Positions 1 through 13,099 of a stretch of 64,000 bases of DNA are shown here, piece after piece. The notes beneath the pieces are model-generated. The model saw only the letters and a list, made by a program, of their open reading frames with translations, was not told the origin of the DNA and searched no databases. The position numbers were made by a program, and so were the translations under genes. The stretch is taken from the NCBI RefSeq assembly GCF_021728415.1, contig NZ_JAKKDV010000002.1:682001-746000 (forward strand). The letters are read 5' to 3'. The stretch comes from Flaviramulus multivorans. Its GTDB lineage: Bacteria; Bacteroidota; Bacteroidia; Flavobacteriales; Flavobacteriaceae. The first letter of the stretch is position 1. Each line of letters begins with the position of its first letter.

Positions 1-955
1 TTATCGAAAGTGTTTCTAATTCATTTTTTTCATTTTCAAAAATCAAAAAAACTTTTAATTCCGGGTGCTCATTTAAAAACCTCTTTACCTTTTCGATACC
101 CATAGCCTTAAAAGCTGTGGCATAAGCATCCGCAATCATACAGTTTTCAGCAATTACCGATATACTCAACAAGTTAGTTTTACTCGGATATCCAGTTTTG
201 GTGTCAATTATATGTGCATAGCGATTACCATTTTCATCCACTTTAAACTTTCTGTAAGTACCCGATGTTGCCATCGATTCATCTTTTAAATGAATAGCCC
301 TTAAAATAGATTGTTCACCATCAAAATTAGGGTTTTCAACGCCTACTTTCCACAGACTTTGCTTTTCTTCATTTATCCCTTTTGCTCTTATCTCACCACC
401 AATTTCAACTAAATAATTTTTAATATTTTGAGATTCAAGAAACTCTCCAATTACATCAACACCATATCCTTTTGCAATGGCATTAAAATCAATAAACAAC
501 TCTTTAGGTTTTATAATTTTATTATTTACTCGAGATACTTTGTTAAAACCAACAAACTGCATTAAACTATCAATTTTAAGGCTATCTAGGTTAACTATTT
601 TTCCTTCGGGACCAAAATCCCATGCATTCACTAAAACACCAATGGAAGGATCAAAAACACCATCGGTTTCCTTATAAATATAATTTGAAGCTTGAAAAAC
701 TTCAATAAAATGTTCATCAACTTCATTACTTTCATTTCTATTTAATTTTGAAATAATAGAATTAGTTTGATAGGTTGATAATGATTTATTGATAACATAA
801 AATAAGCTATCGAATTGCTTTTCAAAATTGGTTTCAGAACCATAAATAATAGAATAACTAGTTCCAAAAACTTGCCCTGAAACCTTAGTGTTTTTGAATT
901 CCTTTTTGCACGAAACCAGTAACAAAAAAAGAAAAACCAAGTAATATCTTTTCAT
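1..955 (-). CDS. apbE: FAD:protein FMN transferase ApbE, lipoprotein (3' end outside window)
   Basis: I translated this from the minus strand. It starts at the ATG at 955 and stays open to the left edge, giving 318 residues without a stop, so the C-terminus is missing. The N-terminus is a lipoprotein signal (hydrophobic run then LLLVSCKK). ApbE hallmarks are visible: DGVFDPSIGVLVNAW, DFNAIAKGYGVDV, EIGGEIRAKG, the ATSGTYRKF region and HIIDTKTGYPS followed by AENCMIADAYATAFKAMG. The family uses FAD to attach FMN to Thr in NqrB and NqrC, and the nqr operon lies about 7.5 kb away. The upstream gene stops immediately before this ATG (TAGATG), so the two are probably cotranscribed. Confident call. 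Confidence 0.93.
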   Translation of the reverse strand, partial: MKRYYLVFLFLLLVSCKKEFKNTKVSGQVFGTSYSIIYGSETNFEKQFDSLFYVINKSLSTYQTNSIISKLNRNESNEVDEHFIEVFQASNYIYKETDGVFDPSIGVLVNAWDFGPEGKIVNLDSLKIDSLMQFVGFNKVSRVNNKIIKPKELFIDFNAIAKGYGVDVIGEFLESQNIKNYLVEIGGEIRAKGINEEKQSLWKVGVENPNFDGEQSILRAIHLKDESMATSGTYRKFKVDENGNRYAHIIDTKTGYPSKTNLLSISVIAENCMIADAYATAFKAMGIEKVKRFLNEHPELKVFLIFENEKNELETLSI

Positions 956-1333
956 CTAGTTTAAATTAGTTTCAAGCACTTGAATACCGTTGTACTCAAT
1001 TAAATACTCTTCGTTAAGATATATGGGTAATTCTTCACCATTAGGATTGCCAAGTCCTACACCTGCATATAATACTTTGGCATCTTTTTCCCGCGCATGT
1101 TTTTTAAAACTTTCCATCCAAATTACATCATAATTATTAGGGTTTTCTGGTAATATTACGGCTCTTACAATCACAAAAAAATATTGGTTTGTTTTATCAA
1201 TACATACAAACTGCGGGTGTTTTTTAAGTTTACTATTAATGGCTATAAACTCAAATCCACGCTTTTCTAAATCATTACCCACATGATTCATGGCTAGGTT
1301 ATGTAGTTCTTGTTCTGTAAGTGGTTTGCTCAT
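956..1333 (-). CDS. Small conserved flavobacterial protein upstream of apbE
   Basis: This gene encodes 125 residues when started at the ATG at 1333 (MSKPLTEQELHNLAM...). A 13-codon longer reading from 1372 is possible. The shorter start is preferred because a promoter-like TATTTTTG lies just upstream of it on the minus strand. No signal peptide or membrane segment is visible; it looks like a small soluble alpha/beta protein. From memory, relatives in flavobacteria sit beside apbE and are sometimes labelled subunit F of Na+-NQR. It has no 2Fe-2S cysteines and no FAD/NAD motifs, so that label would be wrong. Its stop codon abuts the apbE start. Function unknown; a link to Nqr maturation is only inferred from position. 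Confidence 0.8.
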   Translation of the reverse strand: MSKPLTEQELHNLAMNHVGNDLEKRGFEFIAINSKLKKHPQFVCIDKTNQYFFVIVRAVILPENPNNYDVIWMESFKKHAREKDAKVLYAGVGLGNPNGEELPIYLNEEYLIEYNGIQVLETNLN

Positions 1334-1424
1334 GCTACAAAAATAATATAAAAGTTGAAGACGTGATGACATTTTTAATCTCTTACGATGTAAAATAAAA
1401 GTCTAACTTAAAAAACTGAATATT

Positions 1425-1937
1425 ATGAAAACACATTTCTCATTGCTAGTTATTTTCTTGCTTATACTAACATCCTGCACTTCCGATGATTCAGGTTCAC
1501 AAGAAACTCAAGAACCTATCACATTTACAATTGATAATTTTACTTACCGAAGTTATCCTATACCACAAACCGTAGAGGGTTGGGAAGGTTCGGCATCGTA
1601 TGCACTAGCGGTTTTTGATGTTGAACCAAAAGCTAAAAAGTATACTGCCAAATTTTATGGTACTGATTTCTCAAACTTACATTATACAATAAGTTGGCTA
1701 CCTGGAGATCCTATTCCCGACCCAGCTTTTATGCACGAAACTACTGATGGGTATAACAATGGGGTAATTGATGGAAAATACAATATTGCCGCACTTAAAA
1801 ATGGTTGTCAAGGTATAATAATGCCTCCTTTTGACGTTGGACCTTGCAACTTTATTTCTGGAACGACGAGACAAGCTAATATAGACGGATTAATATCTAT
1901 CGGAGGTAAAATGGATATCACTATTGAATTTGAATAA
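1425..1937 (+). CDS. Putative lipoprotein, unknown function
   Basis: The 170-residue product has a lipoprotein signal: a hydrophobic N-terminus ending LLILTSCTSDDSGS, with the lipidated Cys around residue 18 and an acidic/Ser linker after it. The mature part is beta-rich in appearance and contains an LPGDPIPDPAF stretch and two cysteines (NGCQG, VGPCN). I do not recognise a family. It is divergent from the apbE pair and followed by another lipoprotein gene about 210 bases downstream. Confidence 0.75.
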   Translation: MKTHFSLLVIFLLILTSCTSDDSGSQETQEPITFTIDNFTYRSYPIPQTVEGWEGSASYALAVFDVEPKAKKYTAKFYGTDFSNLHYTISWLPGDPIPDPAFMHETTDGYNNGVIDGKYNIAALKNGCQGIIMPPFDVGPCNFISGTTRQANIDGLISIGGKMDITIEFE

Positions 1938-2151
1938 TAAGTCTTTCTAAAACTAGATCATTTAGTTTTTTGTAAAAAAATAAAAAGCTTTACGGTCAAT
2001 TGAAGACTCGAAAGATAATTTACTAATAAGTTCATTCCTAATGTTCATTTCACTCCAAATATTGCCCAAGGAAATTTGAAAGAGAGAATCAACGAGAATT
2101 AAAATGTTTTTAATGACTTCGAATGTATAAAAAACAATAAAAATCAAAATT

Positions 2152-2916
2152 ATGAAAGCAATAAAATTATACTTTCTTTTGGCTATAATAATATTACTTG
2201 CAGCATGTAGCCCTGATAATTCGGTTGCTAATAATAATAATCTTGAAAATGCCATATCAAAACAAGGTTGCCAGAATGTATCCGGTCCAACAGCTATTTA
2301 TTGGGATTATGCTAATGGTATTCCTGCTCCTTTATCACAAATACCAGTTCTAGCAAATCCAGGGCCCCAATTTATTCATAGCCAACATCCATATTTAGGA
2401 TTAATATTGCCACAAGGGTATACAGCTTTTGAAGACCAAGATTTACAAACCGCATCTTTAGGTGTAAACATTATACGTAATGATAATGCAGTTATTTGGA
2501 GGTACGTCCCATTATCTACGTTTGCCGAAAACACATCAGTAACTAGTATTATTAGTAGAGAGATAAATACCATGTTAAATTTTTATGGTATTCAAAACAT
2601 TGATGATGTATTGTGCTCAGTTACAAAACCTCTAGACAGTCCACTAAATATGACATATAGTGGTCGATTACTAAGATTTGGCAATTTCACAGCGTTAGTG
2701 TATGTAATTGTAACGCAAGTACAAGGGTTACCTGCATCAGCTGTATTATCTATTTCAGCAGGTCCATCAACTGAATATAACAACTTAGTCATGGACATAT
2801 TCTTACCACTTAGTTTTCAATTATTGGTAAGTGACAGAGATAGCCTCTCAGATAGAGATGGGGATGGGACTCCAGATATATTTGATAGTGAACCTGACAA
2901 TCCAAATGTTCAATAA
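2152..2916 (+). CDS. Putative lipoprotein with C-terminal calcium-binding-like acidic repeat
   Basis: The 254-residue product has a lipoprotein signal (hydrophobic segment then LAACSPDNS). An Asn-rich linker precedes a mature region of no family I recognise. The last 25 residues contain SDRDGDGTPDIFDSEPDNP, which matches the DxDxDG type of Ca2+-binding loop seen in thrombospondin type-3-like repeats of Bacteroidota surface proteins. No type IX sorting domain follows, so lipid anchoring is the likely attachment. Expected to be exposed on the outer membrane or in the periplasm. Confidence 0.75.
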   Translation: MKAIKLYFLLAIIILLAACSPDNSVANNNNLENAISKQGCQNVSGPTAIYWDYANGIPAPLSQIPVLANPGPQFIHSQHPYLGLILPQGYTAFEDQDLQTASLGVNIIRNDNAVIWRYVPLSTFAENTSVTSIISREINTMLNFYGIQNIDDVLCSVTKPLDSPLNMTYSGRLLRFGNFTALVYVIVTQVQGLPASAVLSISAGPSTEYNNLVMDIFLPLSFQLLVSDRDSLSDRDGDGTPDIFDSEPDNPNVQ

Positions 2917-3148
2917 AAAGCAATATCAAACTGATAGTTTCGAAAGGGCTTATTTTGCATTTATTAACGTTCTGCTTCTAATCCACTTGTTGTAAAAAAT
3001 AATGGTATTTAAATTGAATAAAAAACACAAATTCAGTTTATACAATATAGGAGCAGAAAGTTATAAACAAAAAAATAGCTTATGAAAAAAAAGAAAGAAT
3101 CAATTTAACGTAGATAACCGAAATATTAAATCATTTAATAGTCAGGTG

Positions 3149-3179
3149 TTTGAGATAAATTGAAATAATTGTATATTTC
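3149..3179 (+). promoter_or_regulatory. Predicted primary-sigma promoter of the sigma/TPR/CHAT cassette
   Basis: TTTG at 3149-3152, then exactly 19 bases, then TATATTTC at 3172-3179. The Bacteroidota consensus is TTTG, 19-21 bases, TAnnTTTG; only the last base of the -7 box differs. Transcription would start about 10 bases before the sigma gene ATG at 3196. This suggests basal transcription by the housekeeping sigma. Confidence 0.6.
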
Positions 3180-3195
3180 TCCTAGCTATTAATTC

Positions 3196-3774
3196 ATGGG
3201 GAAATCATTAAAATTATTAAATCAATCAGAACTCGTTTATGCCATCAAATCGAACGATTCTAATATTTTAAAACATTTTTACACAACTAATTACAAAAAA
3301 ATTGAAACACTCATATTAAAAAACAGTGGTTCAATTGATTATGCTAAAGATATTTATCAAGATGCTTTTATTGCCGTTTGGACTCATGTAAAGAACGATA
3401 AATTTGTGCCAAAAAATGATACCGCTTTACAAGCCTATTTATATACCATTGCAAAAAACAAATGGATGGATTATTTACGCTCTAATGATTTTAAGAAAAT
3501 ATCAAGTGCCTCTAAACTTAGGCACTTTGAGCCAGCTGATGATTTTTCGGAAAAAACTAATGATGACAAATTGAAAACCGAGCGATTACATAAAATCATG
3601 CATACTTTCAAAAATCTTGGTGAACCTTGTAAATCACTTCTAACTAAGTTTTATTTCGAAAAAAAATCTATGAAGGATATTGCAGACGAGTTTCTGTTAG
3701 ATGCTGCATCTACGAGAAATAAAAAATATAGATGCATGCAAAAATTAAGAGAGTTAGCCCTAAAAATCGAATAA
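3196..3774 (+). CDS. Sigma-70 family (ECF-like) RNA polymerase sigma factor
   Basis: The product has 192 residues, the normal ECF length. Region 2 is clear: the DIYQDAFIAVWTHV stretch (around residue 56), then LQAYLYTIAKNKWMDYLRSND, matching core binding and the -10 recognition helix. An acidic linker follows, then region 4: CKSLLTKFYFEKKSMKDIADEF, a helix-turn-helix (AASTRNKKYRC) and the tail MQKLRELA. No signal or membrane segment. The next gene starts 4 bases after this stop, so the two are translationally close, as sigma and anti-sigma genes usually are. Regulon unknown. Confident on family, inferred on role. Confidence 0.92.
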   Translation: MGKSLKLLNQSELVYAIKSNDSNILKHFYTTNYKKIETLILKNSGSIDYAKDIYQDAFIAVWTHVKNDKFVPKNDTALQAYLYTIAKNKWMDYLRSNDFKKISSASKLRHFEPADDFSEKTNDDKLKTERLHKIMHTFKNLGEPCKSLLTKFYFEKKSMKDIADEFLLDAASTRNKKYRCMQKLRELALKIE

Positions 3775-3778
3775 TAGC

Positions 3779-4498
3779 ATGAACCCAAATAATAATATAT
3801 CACAAGAATTATTAGAAACTATTGAACGTTACTACAACGATTCAATGAGTACGGATGAACGACATCTTTTTGTAGAAAAACTAGAAAGTAATCCAGAATT
3901 CAAAACCCAAGTTGAAGACATTAAAATACTGTTTCTTGGCATTGAAACTCAATCATTAAAAGAACAATTGGATGAGTTTCATAAAGATATCCCTAAAGCA
4001 ACATCGAAAATTAGATTTTTACAATTTACAAAATATGCTGTAGCAGCTGTAGTTGTTATTAGTTTGGGCAGTTATTGGTTTTTCGGAAAACCATCCAATC
4101 AAAAACTATATGCAAAATATTTTACACCAGATCCTGGATTACCAACCACTATGAGTTCTAGTCTTAATTTTGAGTTTTATGATGCTATGGTAAACTACAA
4201 ACATGGTGATTATGAATTGGCCATTTCTAAATGGGAAAAACTACAAATAAACAAACCTAATAACGATACAATAAATTACTTTTTGGGTGTTGCCCAATTA
4301 GCCAATAAAAATGAACTTAAAGCGATTCCATACCTTAAAAGCACCATTCAAAAACCAGAAAGTGTTTTTTTGAACGATGCTCATTATTATTTGGGCTTAG
4401 CCTATTTGAAGGAAGGTAATATAGAACGTGCCAGAAAACATCTTGATTTAAGCAATACGGATGTTGGACAAGAACTTATTTCAAAACTGACCGATTAA
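3779..4498 (+). CDS. Single-pass membrane protein with C-terminal TPRs, candidate anti-sigma factor
   Basis: The 239-residue product has three parts. Residues 1-80 are soluble and helical, with an acidic ETIERYYNDSMSTDERHLF stretch resembling the N-terminal sigma-binding part of Bacteroidota anti-sigma factors; no zinc HxxxCxxC motif is present. Residues about 86-102 form one membrane helix (AVAAVVVISLGSYWFF). Residues about 130-230 form two to three TPR-like hairpins (NYKHGDYELAISKWEKL; AHYYLGLAYLKEGNIERARKHL). The likely topology is N-terminus in the cytoplasm and TPRs in the periplasm. It lies 4 bases after the sigma gene and 14 bases before the CHAT gene. Anti-sigma function is inferred from architecture and position. 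Confidence 0.8.
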   Translation: MNPNNNISQELLETIERYYNDSMSTDERHLFVEKLESNPEFKTQVEDIKILFLGIETQSLKEQLDEFHKDIPKATSKIRFLQFTKYAVAAVVVISLGSYWFFGKPSNQKLYAKYFTPDPGLPTTMSSSLNFEFYDAMVNYKHGDYELAISKWEKLQINKPNNDTINYFLGVAQLANKNELKAIPYLKSTIQKPESVFLNDAHYYLGLAYLKEGNIERARKHLDLSNTDVGQELISKLTD

Positions 4499-4512
4499 AT
4501 TCTCTGATCAAA

Positions 4513-7500
4513 ATGACTCGGATAAAATACTATAAAGTATGTTTTGTAATTCTGCTTCTAGGAATTATTTCGCTAAAATCACAAGCGCAAAACAATACAA
4601 CTGATGGTATTTCATACATTGAAGAATTGATAAAAAATGACTCATTACAGCTTGCTGAAAAAGAATTAAAAGCACAAATCGAGTATCTTAGATTACAAAA
4701 AAATTATGATTCCTTAACCTATTACATCCCTTTAGTTGGGAGCTATAATTTAGCTCAAGGAAATTACCAAGAAGCTATAAAAAAGGCTACATTATTTGTA
4801 AATGAATTAAAGAGTTTAAATGATAATAACATCACAACCGACGCACTAATTCAATTATCAAATATCTATTTTAACGCAAGACAACACGATAAAGTGTATG
4901 AGGTTAATAACGAGGCTTTAGAATATGCAAAATTTATAAAAAAAGATAAAAGCTCTAAAATATCCCAATTACACTATAATTTGGGAACCGCTTCTCTTAA
5001 TTTGGGAAGAGTTATGGAAGGTAAAAATCATCTTTATGAATCAAAACGAATATTAGAAGATTCCCCTAATCAAAATCTAATAAATTTATACAACACTTAT
5101 AATTCTATTGGTCGATTACAATCGAGCTTAACCCAAATAGACAGCTCAATTCATTATTATCAAAAAGCTCTAAAAACATTAACCGCAATGGATAGTACTG
5201 AGGTTAATAGAGATTATTGGAAAGCAATAGTTAATAATAATATCTCGCTTAATTATCAAAATATAGGTAAAACAGATAAAGCTATAGAATTTATTACAGA
5301 TGCAATTTATGATTTTCAAAAATTTATAAATGTTTCAAATGATGAGTCGAAAAAATTAAGAGCTAAAAGGTACCGTCTTGCAACAATTGACAATTTAAGT
5401 ACCTTTTATGAGGGTATAGGTGAATATAACCGAGCTCTTGAATTGGTCTTATATTCATACGAAGAGAAATTAAAATTTTTAAAAACTGATGATCCTAATG
5501 TTGTGTTTTCATTAGTAATTCTTGCCCACATGCATTTAAAAGTAAAAGATTTTAAAAAAGCTGCGGTATATGCTGATAAAGCGCTCGATGTTATTAATAA
5601 ATCACCAAGCAATTTTAGTCTCGTACATAGTTTTACTCTTTCCATACGCGCTTCAATTTATAGAGCTTTAAACAATTTTAATGAAGCAAAAAAAATGTAT
5701 GAAGAAAGTGAGCTACTGTACAATAAAACTTTTGACGGAAGTTATTCAATAGATCGCTTAGATGCAATTATCGAAATGTCTAAATTTTATGCCAAAATTA
5801 ATGATTCTAAAAAAGCCTTACAGCTAGCTACTTCTGCTTATAATTACACTAAACAAAATGAATTTGAAAACACTTTAATGCAGTTTCATCATACTGTAAA
5901 TATGGCTGAAGTTTATTTTGAATTGAAAAAATACAATGATGCCTTGAGTTACAGTAATAAGGCACTTGAATTTTTTTCTGAAAATAAACTACAGTCTCAG
6001 ACACTTTCAGATTCAATTCAACAAGAATTTAAAAAACCAAAAGCTATTTTAGTTAATGTGAAGTCTAAATACTATTTAGCTACCGAGCATTCAGAAAGCT
6101 TTTTAATTGATTTATTAAAGCAAATAAACAATAGTATTAAAATTCTTGAACAACGCAAATCTATTACTAAATCCTATGACGATCTAAGCTTGCTAATTGT
6201 TGAAAACAACGAACTTTTTAATTTTTCAAAACAGTTACTATTAGATTTATTTCATCTTACAAATAAAGAAGATTATCTAATTAAGCTCTTAACTATTCAT
6301 GAGTCAAGTATTTATAATAGAATAAGAACACGATTAAACTTAAAAAATAATATAACTTTTGCAAATATTCCAAAAGCTATATTGGACCGTGAAAACCTAT
6401 TAAAACATGAGCTTAGTACATCTATTAAAAATGATGACGGCAGTTTTAAATCTTTTTTCGAAAAAAATAATAATTGGAAAATATTTTTAGATTCACTAAA
6501 ACAAACGTATCCTAAATATTATAAAATGCGTTATGCAACAATTGAAGAACCGTTAAATGATATTCACAAAAAAATTCAGCAAAACACTACAGTAATACGA
6601 TATTTATTTGCAAACGAAAATTTATACGTAGTCGTCCTTTCTGCTAATAGTAATGACATCTTTAAAGTAGATACTGAAAATATAAGTAATTATATTTCAG
6701 AATTATCTGAAAATCAATCAAGTATTAAATCTATAAGTATAATACTGCACGAGCTATACCAAAAATTATGGAAGCCAATTGAACATAAAATAAAAACCGA
6801 AAATATTATCATTATTCCAGATGGTGCTTTATTCAACTTAAGTTTTGAAACCTTAACTCCAAAAAAAATAAGCTCATTTAAAGAATTAGGAACTATGAGT
6901 TTATTATCTAAACATAGCATTTCTTATAATTACAGTTTGTTGTTATTAGACAAGAATAAAAAAACGATAAATTATCAAAATGATTTTATCGCCTTTGCTC
7001 CAGAGTTCACTGATAAAATGAAAAAAGATTATAGGGTTGCCATTACCGATTCTGTTTCTGTTGATAAGACTTACTTAAGTTTATTACCCCAACCATTTAG
7101 TGTTGATTTGGCCAAAAAATATTCTCGCTTATTTAACGGATCTTTCTTTATAAATGAAAATGCTTCGAAAAAAATATTTAAAAATGAAGCTAATGAGCAT
7201 AAAATAATTCATATAGGAACACATGCAGAATCTAACAATATAACTCCAGAATTGTCACGTTTAATTTTTGCAAAAAACAATCCCAACGATAATAATTCTC
7301 TTTACACATATGAAATTTATAACGAAAGTTTAAATTCTAATTTAGCCATTTTAACTGCTTGCGAAACAGGAAAACCATCATACCAAGCTGGAGAAGGTAT
7401 GATTTCATTAGCACACGCTTTTAATTATGCTGGTAGCGAAAGTATATTAACTAGTTTGTGGAAAATTGATGAACAGTCCAGTGCTAAGATAATTGAATTA

Positions 7501-7737
7501 TTTTACGACAATATTAAAAACGGATTACCAAAAGATCAAGCTTTACAAAAAGCAAAAATTGATTATATCGTCAATGCTGAAGGCAGAACCGTTGCTCCTC
7601 AATATTGGGCTGGTTTAGTTTTAATAGGGGATACTGCTCCAATAGATTTACAAATAACTTCATATTTAATATGGTACATACTTGTTACAGTATTTATAAT
7701 TCTTGCTTTAGTATTTTTTCTTAAAAGAAGAAAATAA
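4513..7737 (+). CDS. TPR-CHAT caspase-like protease, exported and membrane-anchored
   Basis: The product has 1074 residues. Residues 1-25 are a signal peptide ending KSQAQ. Roughly 35-560 is a long array of TPR-type helical hairpins. A helical linker leads to a CHAT domain at about 690-1042. The catalytic pair is visible: His904 in HIGTHAES and Cys950 in ILTACETG. The following conserved features are present too: GEGMISLAHAFNYAGS, SLWKIDEQSSA, a long helix FYDNIKNGLPKDQALQKAK and APQYWAGLVLIGD. Residues about 1050-1070 form a C-terminal membrane helix followed by KRRK, which suggests the CHAT domain sits on the periplasmic side. CHAT domains are clan CD cysteine proteases related to caspases and separase. 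It is the last gene of the sigma cassette. The substrate is unknown; the preceding TPR protein is the obvious candidate. Confidence 0.92.
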   Translation: MTRIKYYKVCFVILLLGIISLKSQAQNNTTDGISYIEELIKNDSLQLAEKELKAQIEYLRLQKNYDSLTYYIPLVGSYNLAQGNYQEAIKKATLFVNELKSLNDNNITTDALIQLSNIYFNARQHDKVYEVNNEALEYAKFIKKDKSSKISQLHYNLGTASLNLGRVMEGKNHLYESKRILEDSPNQNLINLYNTYNSIGRLQSSLTQIDSSIHYYQKALKTLTAMDSTEVNRDYWKAIVNNNISLNYQNIGKTDKAIEFITDAIYDFQKFINVSNDESKKLRAKRYRLATIDNLSTFYEGIGEYNRALELVLYSYEEKLKFLKTDDPNVVFSLVILAHMHLKVKDFKKAAVYADKALDVINKSPSNFSLVHSFTLSIRASIYRALNNFNEAKKMYEESELLYNKTFDGSYSIDRLDAIIEMSKFYAKINDSKKALQLATSAYNYTKQNEFENTLMQFHHTVNMAEVYFELKKYNDALSYSNKALEFFSENKLQSQTLSDSIQQEFKKPKAILVNVKSKYYLATEHSESFLIDLLKQINNSIKILEQRKSITKSYDDLSLLIVENNELFNFSKQLLLDLFHLTNKEDYLIKLLTIHESSIYNRIRTRLNLKNNITFANIPKAILDRENLLKHELSTSIKNDDGSFKSFFEKNNNWKIFLDSLKQTYPKYYKMRYATIEEPLNDIHKKIQQNTTVIRYLFANENLYVVVLSANSNDIFKVDTENISNYISELSENQSSIKSISIILHELYQKLWKPIEHKIKTENIIIIPDGALFNLSFETLTPKKISSFKELGTMSLLSKHSISYNYSLLLLDKNKKTINYQNDFIAFAPEFTDKMKKDYRVAITDSVSVDKTYLSLLPQPFSVDLAKKYSRLFNGSFFINENASKKIFKNEANEHKIIHIGTHAESNNITPELSRLIFAKNNPNDNNSLYTYEIYNESLNSNLAILTACETGKPSYQAGEGMISLAHAFNYAGSESILTSLWKIDEQSSAKIIELFYDNIKNGLPKDQALQKAKIDYIVNAEGRTVAPQYWAGLVLIGDTAPIDLQITSYLIWYILVTVFIILALVFFLKRRK

Positions 7738-7845
7738 GAAGTTTTAAGGTTTATCTTAATAGCTAAATCAATTAATAATTATACATATAGGAAATTGATC
7801 TTTTTTAGGGAATTGATTTTTTTGGTACATTAGTAATAAAAAAAC

Positions 7846-8298
7846 ATGAAAACCTCATCGCGTTTAGAGAAAGCTATAAAAAAACTATATGTTGCCTTTC
7901 ATGCTAACGAATTAAACCCCGAATGTTGTAAACACTGTGCTGTTGGAAATATTTTAAATAATACGGACAGTTGGAAACATCTTTCAAACGATCACGGTTC
8001 TCTTGAACTAAATTATGTTGGAAAAGTACATCAAACACTCGGTAGAAAATTTAATGGCTACTCTCCCCTAGAATTATTACAAATTGAAGCAACTTTTTTA
8101 AAAGCTTGTGGTTACCAGCTGCCACTTCACCACAAAAACAAAAAACCAAAAAGTTCAGCTGATAAAGAAGCTTTGTTTAATGGTCTTACAGCAGTGATGG
8201 AGTATTTATGCAAACTGGATAATATTAATAATATCATGGACTACTCGAAACTTTTTGAGTTTGAAAATGAAAAACCTAAATATCAGCTACCTTATTAA
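7846..8298 (+). CDS. Conserved flavobacterial protein next to nqr, unknown function
   Basis: The 150-residue product is soluble, with no signal peptide. Near the N-terminus is a cluster NPECCKHCAVGN (CCxxC) followed by several His residues (SWKHLSNDHGSLELN), which could bind a metal or cluster. Other recognisable conserved-looking segments are GYSPLELLQIEATFLKACGY and NIMDYSKLFEFENEKPKY. From memory this type is common in flavobacteria beside nqrF, but its role is not established. It is convergent with nqrF, with a strong terminator between them. Confidence 0.85.
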   Translation: MKTSSRLEKAIKKLYVAFHANELNPECCKHCAVGNILNNTDSWKHLSNDHGSLELNYVGKVHQTLGRKFNGYSPLELLQIEATFLKACGYQLPLHHKNKKPKSSADKEALFNGLTAVMEYLCKLDNINNIMDYSKLFEFENEKPKYQLPY

Positions 8299-8313
8299 AA
8301 CTTTCCATAAACT

Positions 8314-8344
8314 AAAAAACCCAACATATCTGTTGGGTTTTTTT
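8314..8344. terminator. Bidirectional Rho-independent terminator between the 150-residue gene and nqrF
   Basis: AAAAAACCCAACA, a 4-base loop TATC, then TGTTGGGTTTTTTT. It is a perfect stem with A and T tracts on either side, so it can end both converging transcripts. Confidence 0.9.
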
Positions 8345-8352
8345 ATAATGAG

Positions 8353-8373
8353 ATACTGAAACAAGTTCAGTAT
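8353..8373. repeat. Short dispersed palindrome (copy 1)
   Basis: ATACTGAA, ACAAG, TTCAGTAT: an 8-base perfect inverted repeat with a 5-base loop. The same ACAAG or its complement centres related palindromes at 16451-16471 and 23468-23486. A variant lies at 42746-42766. Confidence 0.65.
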
Positions 8374-8385
8374 GACGCTTCACAC

Positions 8386-9702
8386 CTATCCTCCAAAGTC
8401 ATCAAATCTGATATGCTCATCTGGAATACCAAAATCTTCTCCCATTTTCTGAACTGCTTTGTTCATTAACGGTGGTCCACAGAAATATAATTCTATGTCT
8501 TCTGGTGATTCGTGGTGATTTAAGTAATTATCAATTACACAGTTGTGAATAAATCCAACAAATCCATCTCCTGGAGCATCAATATTTTCTTTTACCTTCC
8601 AGTTATCCTCCGGCAATGGTTCAGACAATGCCATATAGAATTTAAAGTTAGGAAAATCCTTCTCTAAAGATTTAAAGTGATCGATATAGAATAATTCACG
8701 TTTAGAACGTCCTCCATACCAATAGGTAACTTTACGTCCTGTTTTTAAAGTTTTAAATAAGTGATATAAATGAGAACGCATTGGTGCCATTCCTGCTCCA
8801 CCACCTACATAAAGCATTTCTGAATTTGATTCATTAATAAAGAATTCACCATAAGGACCAGAAATAGTAACTTTATCACCTGGCTTTTGGGCAAAAATAT
8901 ATGATGATGCAACACCAGGATTTACATCCATCCAACCATTTTTAGCACGATCCCATGGCGGCGTAGCAATACGAACGTTTAACATAATTTCACGCCCTTC
9001 TGCCGGATAAGAAGCCATAGAGTAAGCTCTTTCTACTGTTTCATCATTTTTCATTACCAATGGCCATAAACCAAATTTATCCCACTCTGCTTGAAACTTA
9101 TCTGGTGTTTCATGCTCCTCTGGGTGAGCAGTAATGTCTATATCCGCATATTTAATTGAGCATGGTGGTATTTCAATTTGAATGTAGCCACCAGCTTTAT
9201 AACCCATATCTTCAGGAATTTCAACAACAAACTCCTTAATAAATGAGGCAACATTATAATTACGAACTACAGTTGCTTCCCACTTTTTTATACCAAATAC
9301 CTCTTCAGGAATGGTAATATTCATGTCTTGTTTTACTTTTACCTGACATGCTAAACGAGCTCCATGTTGCAATTCTTTACGTGTAAAATGTGGTGTTTCA
9401 GTAGGCAAAGCTTCTCCTCCACCTTCTAATACATGACATTCACATTGTATACAAGTTCCACCACCACCACAGGCAGATGGTAAAAATATTTTTTGATTCC
9501 CTAAAGTAGATAATAATGTTCCTCCAGAGGCTACCTCAATTTCCTTTTCCCCATTGATAGTGATTTTTACTGGACCCGATGGAGATAACTTTTGTTTTAC
9601 AAACAATAGTAAAGCTACTAACAACAATGTAATGATTAAAAAAGCTGTTACTGTTGCTATAATTGTTCCTAATGTACCTGCTGCTAAAATCATACTATTC
9701 AT
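8386..9702 (-). CDS. nqrF: Na+-translocating NADH:quinone reductase subunit F (NADH-oxidising, 2Fe-2S and FAD)
   Basis: The 438-residue product has an N-terminal membrane helix (about 8-35). A 2Fe-2S ferredoxin domain has Cys78, Cys84, Cys87 and Cys119 (C-x5-C-x2-C). An FAD-binding domain follows with RAYSMASYP, then an NADH-binding domain with [15 protein letters not shown] and the C-terminal FCGPPLM segment. This is the entry point for electrons in the Nqr complex on the cytoplasmic face. It is the last gene of nqrABCDEF and its start overlaps the end of nqrE by 8 bases. Confidence 0.97.
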
Positions 9703-10438
9703 TTTCTTTTATGTTGTTAGCTATTTCTTTATCCTCAGAAGCTTCAGATGAATTCAATGCAATATTTTCATTTGTTTCTTCTTGTACTGAAGCTGTTTTT
9801 TCTTCCTTTGGCGCCTCATCACCTCCTGTTAGCATACCTCCAAAACTCATAAATCCTATAGCCATTAAACCAGTAATGATAAATGTTATTCCTAAACCTC
9901 TTAGCGCAGGCGGTACACTTGAATATCTGATTTTTTCACGAATAGCGGCAATAGCTAAAATGGCTAAAAACCATCCAATTCCTGAAGCTACTCCATAATT
10001 AAATGCCAACCCTAAAGTTGGTATTTCTCTAGACTGCATAAATAATGAGCCTCCTAAAATAGCACAGTTTACCGCAATAAGTGGTAAGAATATACCAAGT
10101 GAATTGTATAATGAAGGTGAAAACTTCTCAACGACAATTTCTACCAATTGTACCATGGTTGCAATAGTTGCAATAAACATGATAAATGATAAGAAACTTA
10201 AATCGTAATCTGCATATTCAGCACCTAACCATGATAATGCTCCTGGTTGTAACAAATACTGGTCTAGTAACCAGTTTAAAGGTACTGTAATAGCCAATAC
10301 GAAAATTACCGCAGCTCCTAAACCAACAGCAGTACTTACTTTTTTAGATACAGCAAGGTAAGAACACATTCCTAAGAATGTTGCAAACACCATGTTATCT
10401 ATAAATATTGATTTGAAAAATAATTCTATATGTTCCAT
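9695..10438 (-). CDS. nqrE: Na+-translocating NADH:quinone reductase subunit E, with acidic C-terminal extension
   Basis: The 247-residue product is longer than the usual about 200. Six hydrophobic segments fill residues 1-205, including the [18 protein letters not shown] and [15 protein letters not shown] regions; the Cys residues in these two half-repeats are those known to hold the membrane Fe centre together with NqrD. The last about 40 residues are hydrophilic and strongly acidic ([20 protein letters not shown]...). The extension looks genuine because the reading frame overlaps nqrF by 8 bases. Confidence 0.96.
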
Positions 10439-10472
10439 TTATTCTTTATTATAAATTCAGAAATCTGAATTA

Positions 10473-11120
10473 TTAATGATCTTCAATTAATGCTTTGTTT
10501 CTACTACGTTGTACCCAAATAATAATACCTACTACTATAAGTGCCATTGGCGATAGTAACATAAACCCGTTATTTTCGTAACCTATAGCATACAATCCTG
10601 TTTTTTCAATAGGATCTCCTAAAACTTTAAATCCTAGTAAAGTTCCCGAACCTAATAACTCTCTAAAGAAACCAACAACAATAAGTATTGCGCCATACCC
10701 TGCTGCATTACCAATACCATCTAAAAATGAACGCCAAGGACCATTTCCTAAAGCAAACGCCTCAAAACGTCCCATGATGATACAGTTAGTAATAATTAAA
10801 CCAACAAAAACGGATAAGGTTTTACTTAACTCGTATGCAAAAGCCTTTAATACAAGGTCTACAATAATTACTAGAGCAGCCACAACAACTAGCTGTACAA
10901 TAATTCTAATTTTTGATGGAATAATGTTTCTCATTAAAGAAATAACCACGTTTCCTATGCCTAAAACAAATAATACTGAAACAGCCATTACAATAGAAGC
11001 TTTTAACTCTGCTGTAATTGCCAATGCAGAACAAATACCTAATACCTGAATAGTAATTGGGTTATTATCCGCTAATGGGTCTAATATTAATTTGCTGTCT
11101 TTTTTTGAAAGTAAGCCCAT
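10473..11120 (-). CDS. nqrD: Na+-translocating NADH:quinone reductase subunit D
   Basis: The 215-residue polytopic protein is the pseudo-symmetric partner of NqrE. The two half-repeats are visible, each with one Cys: TIQVLGICSALAITAELK near the N-terminus and GLIITNCIIMGRFEAFA in the middle. It has six hydrophobic segments and the usual length. It is placed between nqrC (3-base gap) and nqrE (34-base gap) in the standard order. Confidence 0.96.
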   Translation of the reverse strand: MGLLSKKDSKLILDPLADNNPITIQVLGICSALAITAELKASIVMAVSVLFVLGIGNVVISLMRNIIPSKIRIIVQLVVVAALVIIVDLVLKAFAYELSKTLSVFVGLIITNCIIMGRFEAFALGNGPWRSFLDGIGNAAGYGAILIVVGFFRELLGSGTLLGFKVLGDPIEKTGLYAIGYENNGFMLLSPMALIVVGIIIWVQRSRNKALIEDH

Positions 11121-11123
11121 AAA

Positions 11124-11870
11124 TTAATTGTTTTTTAATTTTTCAAAATAAGGTACATAAAGCTTTAAATCGCTTTTTATCATAGCTGTTACTCCATCAC
11201 CTGTAATGGTTGCTCCCGCTATAGCATCTACCTCATTATCTGTTTTATTTGTATTCTTTGGATCTGCATTTCCTTTAGCCACCGTAACTCCTTTAAAAGT
11301 CCCGTTATCTTTTAAATGCTCACCAATAAAATCATCCATAAAGAAACGTTGCTTAATGTTAGCACCTAAACCTGGAGTTTCTCCTTTGTGGTCAAAATAT
11401 GCGCCTTGTATTACCATATCTTCGTCCAAAGCAACATAAGCCCAAATGGCATCCCAAAGGCCTTTACCGTATATTGGTGCGATGTAATAGGTTTTACCAT
11501 CTTTTTCTCCAACAAACAATGGTAATTTTCTAACCTTACCAGCTTTAGCATTTGCTTGTTCCTTCTTTACATCTATTAAATAGGCTTGATCATTTTCAGT
11601 AACATTATCTCCTTCAATCACTAATTGTTTTGTAATGTATTTATTAAACAATTCTGGGGCATCAGTTGTAGAAACAAAATTAGCGCTACTTTCATCATTT
11701 TCATTTACGCCCATAGCATAAAGAATATTCTGTTGCTTTTCTAATCTTTTATTCTCATCGATATTTGGTTTTAATGATGACGCCGCAAATGCTAATAAAG
11801 CACCAACAACTAACACCATCCCAACAGCAAATAATATAGTATATGAATTTTTATCTGTTCTATTTTCCAT
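11124..11870 (-). CDS. nqrC: Na+-translocating NADH:quinone reductase subunit C (covalent FMN)
   Basis: The 248-residue product has one N-terminal membrane helix (about 10-32) and a periplasmic FMN-binding domain. The flavinylation site is DAIAGATIT with acceptor Thr223, matching the position known in Vibrio NqrC. ApbE, encoded at the left end of this window, is the expected transferase. The GETPGLGA segment typical of the family is present. It is 2 bases from nqrB. Confidence 0.96.
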   Translation of the reverse strand: MENRTDKNSYTILFAVGMVLVVGALLAFAASSLKPNIDENKRLEKQQNILYAMGVNENDESSANFVSTTDAPELFNKYITKQLVIEGDNVTENDQAYLIDVKKEQANAKAGKVRKLPLFVGEKDGKTYYIAPIYGKGLWDAIWAYVALDEDMVIQGAYFDHKGETPGLGANIKQRFFMDDFIGEHLKDNGTFKGVTVAKGNADPKNTNKTDNEVDAIAGATITGDGVTAMIKSDLKLYVPYFEKLKNN

Positions 11871-11872
11871 CG

Positions 11873-13099
11873 TTATGCAACTTTAGCTTTTAAACGTTTC
11901 ATTCTTTTCTTCACGTTGGCTTGAACAACGTAATGATCGATAGTTGGTGCAAACACATTCATTAATAGAATTGCCAACATAACACCTTCTGGGTAGGCTG
12001 GATTAAACACACGAATTAATATTGATATAAAACCAACTAAAAACCCATAAATCCATTTTCCTTTATTGGTTTGCGATGCTGTTACAGGGTCTGTTGCCAT
12101 AAACACAGTACCAAACGCAAAACCACCAATGATTAAATGTTCCCAATAAGGCGCACTCATTAATCCATAAAATTTGCTAGTATCTGTTATCCAACCTGAG
12201 GCCGTTACTTGATTAAAAATTAATCCCATAACAATAGCTCCTAAAACTGAGGACAACATGATTCTCCAACTTCCAATTTTAGTGAAGATTAAAAACAACC
12301 CTCCTAATAAAATTAATAAGGTAGATGTTTCACCAACCGAACCTGGTATAAACCCTAAGAACATTTCGGCAGTAGAATAAGCCATTTCTTTACCTTGTGC
12401 TAAACTTCCTAAAATAGTTTCTCCTGAAATCGCATCTAAATTTTGACCTGCTGCAATGGCCTGATCTCTATCAACGGCTCCATGAACCCAAACTTTATCA
12501 CCACTCATCCATGTTGGATATGCAAAGAATAAAAAGGCTCTAATGGTTAATGCTGGATTTAAAATATTCATTCCTGTACCACCAAATACTTCCTTACCAA
12601 TTACAACACCAAAAGCAACTGCTACAGCCAACATCCATAATGGAATATCAACAGGAACAATAAGTGGCACTAGCATACCAGTTACCAAGTAACCTTCTTC
12701 TACTTCATGTTTTTTAATTACGGCAAATAAAAACTCAATAGCTAAACCAACACCATAAGACACAATAACTAATGGTAATATTTTCCAAAAACCAACCATA
12801 AAGTTATCTAAGGTCCAAAATTCAGCGCTCAAAAATCCGCCTGAAACTGCCTGAATATTACCTACTGCTAAGTAATGTTGATACCCCGCATTGAACATTC
12901 CAAAAATCAAACATGGTACCATGGCCATAATAACGGTGTTCATGGTACGCTTTAAATCGTCCGCCGCTTTTATATGAGTACCGCCACGAGTTGTTTCATT
13001 TGGTAAATACAGAAAAGTATGAATCGCATTAAATGCTGGAGCCATTTTGGAACCTCTATACTTCCTTTTTAAGATATTTAATCTAGTCTTTAAATTCAT
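11873..13099 (-). CDS. nqrB: Na+-translocating NADH:quinone reductase subunit B (covalent FMN, riboflavin)
   Basis: The 408-residue polytopic membrane subunit has the usual Nqr/Rnf D-family segments (GGTGMNILNPALTIRAFLFFAYP, FGTVFMATDPVTAS). The expected flavinylation site is DAISGETIL with Thr228. The usual GAT is GET here (Glu227), a change worth checking. Its start codon shares one base with the nqrA stop (TAATG), so translation is coupled. Confidence 0.96.
   Translation of the reverse strand: MNLKTRLNILKRKYRGSKMAPAFNAIHTFLYLPNETTRGGTHIKAADDLKRTMNTVIMAMVPCLIFGMFNAGYQHYLAVGNIQAVSGGFLSAEFWTLDNFMVGFWKILPLVIVSYGVGLAIEFLFAVIKKHEVEEGYLVTGMLVPLIVPVDIPLWMLAVAVAFGVVIGKEVFGGTGMNILNPALTIRAFLFFAYPTWMSGDKVWVHGAVDRDQAIAAGQNLDAISGETILGSLAQGKEMAYSTAEMFLGFIPGSVGETSTLLILLGGLFLIFTKIGSWRIMLSSVLGAIVMGLIFNQVTASGWITDTSKFYGLMSAPYWEHLIIGGFAFGTVFMATDPVTASQTNKGKWIYGFLVGFISILIRVFNPAYPEGVMLAILLMNVFAPTIDHYVVQANVKKRMKRLKAKVA

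Follow-up and report, generated by a model that had tools for sequence, protein, structure and literature searches.

What might a CHAT protease do when it is encoded as the third gene of a unit that begins with a sigma factor? The question is raised by a stretch of the Flaviramulus multivorans genome (64,000 nucleotides, positions 682,001 to 746,000 of contig NZ_JAKKDV010000002.1; hereafter the window), in which positions 3196-7737 hold three open reading frames (ORFs) on the same strand, separated by 4 and 14 bp. A sequence-only reading had described them as genes for a sigma factor, a transmembrane (TM) protein with tetratricopeptide repeats (TPRs) and a TPR-CHAT protease, and both the ORFs and the profile matches bear this description out. 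The same reading had proposed a pathway free of CRISPR (clustered regularly interspaced short palindromic repeats) in which the protease cuts the anchored TPR inhibitor and the sigma factor is released. Gene co-occurrence and the catalytic dyad uphold the outline of this pathway; its compartment and the place of the cut had to be revised. From sequences and structural models we consider it probable that the trio is a stand-alone transmembrane module, in which the CHAT protein is a site-1 protease that cuts the anti-sigma factor after Met125, in the linker between the TM helix and the TPRs and not in the TPRs themselves, and frees the sigma factor. To our knowledge, few CHAT proteases have been assigned a substrate; for this one, sequence predicts not only the substrate but also where it is probably cut and which residues form the specificity pocket.

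The three proteins and their predicted topology

The first gene (3196..3774, forward strand) encodes an extracytoplasmic function (ECF)-type sigma factor of 192 residues, which exceeds the cut-offs of the NCBIfam sigma70-ECF model TIGR02937 (70.5 bits, cut-off 42.9, residues 25-186) and of Pfam Sigma70_r2 (42.2 bits, cut-off 24) and spans regions 2 to 4, as does an ECF member. Because the genome of 3.28 Mb holds 21 Sigma70_r2 matches, accidental adjacency of a sigma gene and a CHAT gene should be rare. The third gene (4513..7737, forward strand) encodes a protein of 1074 residues, predicted to be exported, with TPRs and a CHAT domain (PF12770, 139.5 bits, cut-off 24). Its catalytic pair, His904 (7222..7224) and Cys950 (7360..7362), is intact as had been stated, and all 104 CHAT domains that were aligned retain it; the loss of catalytic residues from homologues that would have spoken against a protease was not seen in any of them. 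On this domain and its His-Cys dyad we assign the protein as a putative clan CD protease. The CHAT model aligns with the catalytic region of the separase ctSPD (5fc2_B) with a Z score of 20.9 and a root-mean-square deviation of 3.0 over 278 residues. Hydrophobic segments are present at both termini, and the C-terminal one is the predicted membrane anchor (7666..7731; hydropathy, and a helix at residues 1052-1073 of the AlphaFold2 (AF2) model). Among 156 non-redundant CHATs linked to a sigma-inhibitor pair, 148 have the C-terminal segment and 135 the N-terminal one.

The middle gene (3779..4498, forward strand) encodes a single-pass protein of 239 residues with one TM helix and a TPR_2 match (34.1 bits, cut-off 27). 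Its AF2 model (mean predicted local distance difference test (pLDDT) score of 87) begins with helices at residues 9-69 (3803..3985), a predicted cytoplasmic sigma-binding domain of three helices for which pLDDT is 85-96 by ten-residue block over residues 11-70. The TM helix follows at residues 83-102 (4025..4084), as judged by hydropathy and the AF2 helix, and a predicted periplasmic TPR domain occupies residues 131-237 (4169..4489) and resembles the designed TPR protein 1na0_A (Foldseek, E 2e-4). Between the two lies the predicted cleavage loop, a periplasmic linker (residues 115-130; 4121..4168) that is modelled without secondary structure and with a pLDDT of 66 over residues 121-130. Members of the family share a short helical N-terminus and a single TM helix, and most of them also have a TPR domain; when the complete inhibitor served as a structural query, the majority of the 50 matches listed were TPR proteins.

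I and my colleagues read the middle protein as an anti-sigma factor, whose N-terminal domain would bind the sigma factor, because family profile matches, model architecture and the placement of the gene directly behind the sigma gene point the same way. Of 41 inhibitor relatives, 19 have a match at E<=0.1 to the NCBIfam general anti-sigma model NF052375 (the best with E 2.8e-6), another anti-sigma profile, LIMLP_03685, is matched by 11 (best E 9.4e-6), and the zinc finger zf-HC2 by 6. The single TM helix comes after a short N-terminal domain, as in anti-sigma factors, and the gap between sigma and inhibitor genes is at most 10 bp in 124 of 165 linked sets. One inhibitor relative, L283, combines this TM-linker architecture with an N-terminus of the zinc-binding type (HxxxCxxC), which gives a hint of how the zinc-free domain arose.

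Both the CHAT protein and the TPRs of the inhibitor are predicted to be periplasmic, because the CHAT protein has an export-type N-terminus and a C-terminal TM helix followed by KRRK, and the inhibitor TPRs lie beyond the inhibitor TM helix; the topology is drawn from hydropathy and the helices of the AF2 models. The compartment is thereby another one than that of the Csx29/Csx30 pair named in the sequence-only reading, which is cytoplasmic. In the mechanism that we propose, the single-pass anti-sigma factor would use its N-terminal domain to tether the sigma factor to the inner membrane. The TPR-CHAT protein, anchored there too and exposing its catalytic domain to the periplasm, would be the dedicated site-1 protease. 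A signal, probably sensed by the long TPR domain of the CHAT protein, would activate the enzyme, which would cut the anti-sigma factor after Met125, where the flexible linker emerges from the membrane into the periplasm. A periplasmic cut would in turn require a second, intramembrane cut: once the periplasmic TPR domain is lost, a general M50 site-2 protease would release the cytoplasmic part and free the sigma factor for its presumed regulon. One M50 site-2 protease is encoded in the genome, a presence that says little because M50 was also found in 14 of 14 control genomes.

Linkage and co-inheritance of the three genes

Relatives of the CHAT protein did not emerge from genome contigs when its sequence was the only query; they did when an alignment was used. 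The CHAT-side sample consisted of 40 regions from the family and the window's own genome and 60 from across the phylum, two of the 60 being 10-base fillers. Within the class Bacteroidia, a sigma gene and a TM-TPR gene adjoin 54 of the 65 CHATs that have a C-terminal anchor and none of the 15 that lack one (Fisher test, 1e-9), fractions that do not describe a random sample because the regions were hand-picked, the first batch partly for window-like length. A search of relatives for conserved co-occurrence of the three genes had been named beforehand, and the anchored CHATs answer it in favour of the trio. Outside the class, linkage was found for 0 of 7 CHATs with the segment and 3 of 17 without it.

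Loci under 8 kb (L001-L031, L110, L111, L170 and L212-L241) were left out, as were L105 and L127 from early alignments. The 165 linked sets were reduced to 156 by dropping seven with an identical CHAT C-terminus, L317 (where the inhibitor is of the FecR type and CHAT is five genes away) and L156 (whose pocket residues did not align). These 156 sets occur in several gene orders: 80 are colinear, 37 divergent and 31 convergent, and in 8 the CHAT gene precedes the pair in the same direction. Of the 80 colinear sets, 76 fall within the window clade or the third group described below. For window-type CHATs, 80 named loci were taken, of which 79 were long enough; their names are mostly flavobacterial or their labels Bacteroidia or Bacteroidota, with one labelled Chlorobiota. 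The trio is present in 66 of the 79.

Approached from the inhibitor, 53 of 60 loci with strong matches contain a sigma-inhibitor pair, and a CHAT gene lies within 5 genes in 38 of those 53; with weak matches, 13 of 20 loci contain the pair and 5 of the 13 have a CHAT gene within 5 genes. Two of the 15 strong pairs without a nearby CHAT gene (L261 and L265) have one on the same contig, beyond the stretch that was read. Among genomes of the class Bacteroidia, a strong inhibitor match (E about 1e-30 or better) was present in 17 of 22 that bear a CHAT and in 2 of 26 that do not (p 8e-7; counts read by eye).

For co-inheritance we used genomes with several copies, in a hand-made list of 53 systems from 20 genomes (19 with two or more), and shuffled partners among the copies of the same genome 1000 times. 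The closest relatives of CHAT and sigma in other genomes agreed for 29 of the 53 systems, where shuffling gave 6.7 on average and 22 at most; those of CHAT and inhibitor agreed for 25 of the 53, where it gave 5.5 on average and 14 at most. Because partners agree far above the shuffled null, the three genes tend to be passed on together.

Several variants of the arrangement were noted. Five window-type loci (L053, L137, L149, L186 and L194) have tandem CHAT duplicates behind one sigma/inhibitor pair. L292 and L298 (945 and 938 residues; among 258 loci) match both the CHAT profile and the TPR-containing inhibitor profile, possibly through shared TPRs only. A single ORF in L277 (6819-7790) and in L280 (6805-7776) combines sigma region 2 with the inhibitor's TM helix, linker and TPRs; these were considered as natural fusions and rejected, as they lack the anti-sigma domain and their genomes are without a CHAT match, and we read them as decay. 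Two genomes with no CHAT match (G411 and G319) hold a broken sigma-inhibitor remnant.

The linker residue and the presumed S1 pocket

In 76 systems, which form the Arg lineage, the most conserved position of the inhibitor is an Arg in the linker (75 of 76; in the exception, L285, the Arg is one residue off). It is found 26.3 +/- 3.8 residues after the TM helix, outside both the anti-sigma and the TPR domains, and is followed by Gly (42), Ser (24), Asn (5), Ala (3), Thr (1) or Asp (1). In the window lineage the aligned residue is Met, in a GLxxM[SG] motif carried by 74 of 74 inhibitors; in the window protein this is Met125 (4151..4153), the predicted P1 residue of the CHAT cut. Four systems have Lys at this position. 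The site is kept in two shortened inhibitors, L087 and L093.

A pocket scan across 311 positions of the window CHAT considered the 23 columns with a conservation of 90% or more among Arg-lineage systems. Exactly three of them, 866, 948 and 987, differ in two or all of the three groups without the Arg. Position 866 is Glu in 76 of 76 Arg systems; it is Leu (61), Val (5), Ile (5), Ala (2) or Thr (1) in the Met systems, Ile, Met, Val and Asp in the four Lys systems, and Ser in two others (L276 and L291, the third non-Arg group). Position 948, two residues before the catalytic Cys, is Ser (75) or Ala (1) with Arg, Asp in 4 of 4 systems with Lys, Thr (73) or Ser (1) with Met, and Ser in the two others. 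Position 987 is Asp in 76 of 76 Arg systems, Glu in 4 of 4 Lys systems and in 73 of 74 Met systems (one gap), and Asp and Asn in L276 and L291. The window CHAT has Leu866 (7108..7110), Thr948 (7354..7356) and Glu987 (7471..7473).

By their place relative to the catalytic residues and to the model helices, these three positions appear to match the S1 positions of clan CD. In the excerpts of two structural papers (PMC4357240, PMC4626109), an S1 acid lies at or before helix alpha1 (gingipain Asp163, MALT1 Asp365, separase Glu917), an S1 residue comes two positions ahead of the catalytic Cys (Asp211 for Cys213 in metacaspase, Met1038 for Cys1040 in separase) and a further S1 acid follows the next strand (MALT1 Glu500, separase Asp1082), the separase residues stemming from a homology model. 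Leu866 would take the position of separase Glu917, Thr948 that of separase Met1038 and metacaspase Asp211, and Glu987 that of separase Asp1082, which is near the start of helix alpha4; the corresponding helix of the CHAT model begins at 987. In the profile alignment Csx29 has no acid at 866, where it has a gap, nor at 987. Loss of the alpha1 acid with Met and gain of an acid at Cys minus 2 with Lys is the pocket change expected of a protease and its putative substrate.

A tree of CHAT domains, for which the Met clade was reduced to 10 members, shows the Lys, the Met and the third group as separate clades among the Arg systems (support 0.967, 0.999 and 0.985), which argues for three independent switches of specificity. 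Positions 948 and 987 played no part in the definition of the Arg lineage. In genomes with no CHAT match (G171 and G264) or a distant CHAT only (G463), the inhibitor linker, inspected by eye, is without Arg, Lys or Met at the site and has Arg-Pro a few residues beyond it.

Window-type CHATs with a pocket of the Met type but without a sigma or inhibitor gene in the stretch read were found in L146, L150-L153, L155, L157, L160, L161, L167, L171 and L211, mostly from Aequorivita; L156, L158 and L164 have a window-type CHAT with the full trio in the same locus. The second CHAT of the window's own genome (L052, 1058 residues) is unanchored, follows a gene for 657 residues without a sigma gene and has Arg-type pocket residues. 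Outside the class, family f22 (L118, L125, L304, L305, L307 and L321) has a TPR anti-sigma gene and a sigma gene near an unanchored CHAT; these CHATs have the Arg-type pocket, with the related sigma/anti-sigma genes a few genes away.

Known relatives, rival explanations and neighbouring genes

Because searches of the Protein Data Bank (PDB) with the full CHAT alignment were swamped by TPR chains, the CHAT domain was used as query; its profile matched DdvA best (E 6e-10), followed by chains of Csx29 (about E 1e-8). By CHAT sequence DdvA and Csx29 are the closest solved relatives, and by fold separase is one too. Craspase, the Csx29/Csx30/CASP-sigma system, is triggered by RNA via Cas7-11 and is cytoplasmic. 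In the excerpted account of that system (PMC10028731), the TPR-CHAT protein relieves an ECF sigma factor by cutting the inhibitor in a flexible loop, between residues 427 and 429 of Csx30, and deletion of Met427 stops the cut. The window system shares this logic; unlike Craspase, it is predicted to be periplasmic, its inhibitor is a TM-TPR protein and its genome is without Cas1 (no search was made for Cas7-11 itself). As the sequence-only reading had remarked, repeats are missing from the vicinity: no direct repeat of at least 22 bp within 120 bp was found in window positions 1-12000. The CASP-sigma model NF041236 gave the sigma factor 41.1 bits, below its cut-off of 100. Among the features looked for (repeats near the locus, Cas1 in the genome, a CASP-sigma match over the cut-off), none marks it as an accessory module of type III-E. 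PADLOC returned no match for the sigma and CHAT proteins at E<=0.1, and for the middle protein a single weak one (JukA, E 0.006).

DegS is a PDZ serine protease; the window protease, by contrast, is a cysteine CHAT encoded beside its presumed substrate. The likeness between the two lies in the pathway, for in the part of the text consulted on RpoE/RseA/DegS/RseP (PMC10028731) the membrane anti-sigma factor is cut by DegS, and further steps precede the release of sigma. DdvS/DdvA of Myxococcus xanthus likewise joins an ECF sigma factor with an anti-sigma factor, according to an excerpt of PMC4374960. The DdvA chain of PDB entries 8rot and 8rw5 is labelled CHAT domain-containing protein and the entry transmembrane anti-sigma factor; by these labels DdvA unites CHAT and anti-sigma factor in one polypeptide, whereas the window has separate ORFs, with a predicted cut site that fits the protease. 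In CalpL/CalpT/CalpS, as excerpted from PMC11229360, a protease cuts an anti-sigma factor and the sigma factor is freed, although CalpL, unlike the window protease, is of the Lon family, activated by cyclic tetra-adenylate and linked to CRISPR. Proteins with CHAT, subtilase and carboxypeptidase domains occur in the gene context of ECF54, for which the excerpted text of PMC8999054 proposes proteolytic control; that control concerns sigma factors without an anti-sigma factor, and its likeness to the window system is one of gene context. We file the trio under sigma release by regulated proteolysis, as a variant with a CHAT protease. The trio is not described among the full-text literature matches listed, which is no claim that it is absent from print.

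Other explanations of the locus were weighed against these data. The CHAT protein could be a sensor or scaffold that binds TPRs and blocks or permits another, DegS-like site-1 enzyme; the TPR domains on both CHAT and inhibitor suggest contact, and 15 of the 53 strong sigma-inhibitor pairs, some with an Arg-Gly site, lack a CHAT within 5 genes. Against this, the His and Cys persist in 104 of 104 CHAT domains, and a scaffold would have no need of S1 residues that shift with the linker residue in three clades; on this P1/S1 covariation and the linkage and paralogue-swap results we set it aside as unlikely. The CHAT gene might instead belong to the regulon of the sigma factor and act on other periplasmic proteins, the linker Arg or Met being conserved for another reason. 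In several divergent or convergent loci CHAT follows a variable secreted or lipoprotein-like gene, as it might in such a target operon; in the window, however, CHAT is the third gene behind sigma at 14 bp spacing, P1 and S1 covary with the inhibitor, and the shortened inhibitors L087 and L093 still carry the linker site, so that we hold this explanation to be quite unlikely.

Kinship with type III-E CRISPR signalling (Csx29, Csx30 and CASP-sigma), the trio being a remnant or cousin of it that has lost Cas7-11, would account for the shared three-part logic (PMC10028731, excerpt) and for the match of Csx29 chains to the CHAT profile. The periplasmic topology, the 41 of 100 bits against the CASP-sigma model, the missing Cas1, a short TM-TPR inhibitor as against the 565 residues of Csx30, and a CHAT profile that fits DdvA slightly better than Csx29 make this kinship very improbable. 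Synteny inherited with no common function would fit the concentration of colinear sets in the window clade or third group. It accords poorly with the divergent and convergent orders and with unanchored CHATs of the class sample that are unlinked, and the anchored-only linkage and the paralogue-swap result leave it scarcely any credence.

Cleavage of the anti-sigma factor by CHAT after Met125 thus remains the reading that we prefer, and a number of observations weigh against it. On the side of the inhibitor, no anti-sigma match of the window protein reaches its cut-off (14.9 bits against LIMLP_03685, cut-off 200), and the N-terminal domain alone found nothing better than E 0.024 among PDB sequences. 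The active-site loops of the CHAT model are of low confidence, which is as expected of a switchable enzyme, a point that is only suggestive. Linkage is incomplete: 11 of the 65 anchored CHATs sampled within the class have no adjoining pair of sigma and inhibitor genes, 13 of the 79 window-type loci are without the trio (11 from Aequorivita; L163 ends at a contig edge), and the link is weaker from the inhibitor side than from the CHAT side. Just three switches of specificity were found, the 74 Met systems being one clade and the tree position of the third group being weakly supported (0.063). The Arg lineage was picked by residue 866, with a loose linker pattern giving the same number, 76; one of the four Lys systems has retained an acidic residue at 866 (Asp), and at 987 both the Lys and the Met systems exchange Asp for Glu rather than for an uncharged residue. 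L276 and L291 are not of the Arg type, and their Met is one column off, which makes P1 uncertain there.

Sites without a partner are a further difficulty. L243, L244, L266, L274 and L286 have an Arg-Gly site and no CHAT in the stretch read, their genomes having CHATs elsewhere; L267 keeps such a site in a genome without a CHAT match; in G346, a genome with no CHAT match, the inhibitor shows SIRGQ. L278 has a Lys-type linker (SITKG) and no CHAT nearby, and the one CHAT read from its genome (L095) carries a pocket of the Arg type. These pairs could be trans-acting, could have lost their partners or could be exceptions.

Whether the module stands for a wider class is, in our judgement, an evenly balanced matter. 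Separase-like CHATs would then replace DegS as site-1 proteases in Bacteroidota, with privacy partly secured by matched P1 and S1 residues (Arg, Lys or Met), with parallel copies in some genomes and with a cut site and specificity that could be read from sequence. If the proposed cut is real, the protease-releases-sigma logic of type III-E CRISPR would also serve CRISPR-free envelope signalling, in a CHAT system that spans more than one Bacteroidota order with several paralogous copies in some genomes, and the system would supply naturally occurring protease/substrate pairs whose specificity has switched.

A promoter-like site, TTTG-N19-TATATTTC (3149..3179, forward strand), lies a short distance ahead of the first gene. 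The dyad TTTG N18 GTAT is over-represented upstream of 27 of 73 sigma genes of the window lineage; the TTTG-type site presumably resembles the Bacteroidota primary-sigma promoter, and the motif search upstream of the window lineage points to an apparently ordinary promoter and no clear sigma-specific motif. Two small lipoprotein-like genes (1425-1937 and 2152-2916) precede the trio on the same strand, for which Pfam gave nothing convincing (best E 0.22). In divergent or convergent loci (L035, L036, L038, L039, L044, L070, L081 and L088), a variable secreted or lipoprotein-like gene precedes CHAT, a subtilase in L081 and a PKD-domain protein in L088; its product may be a signal partner or a target.

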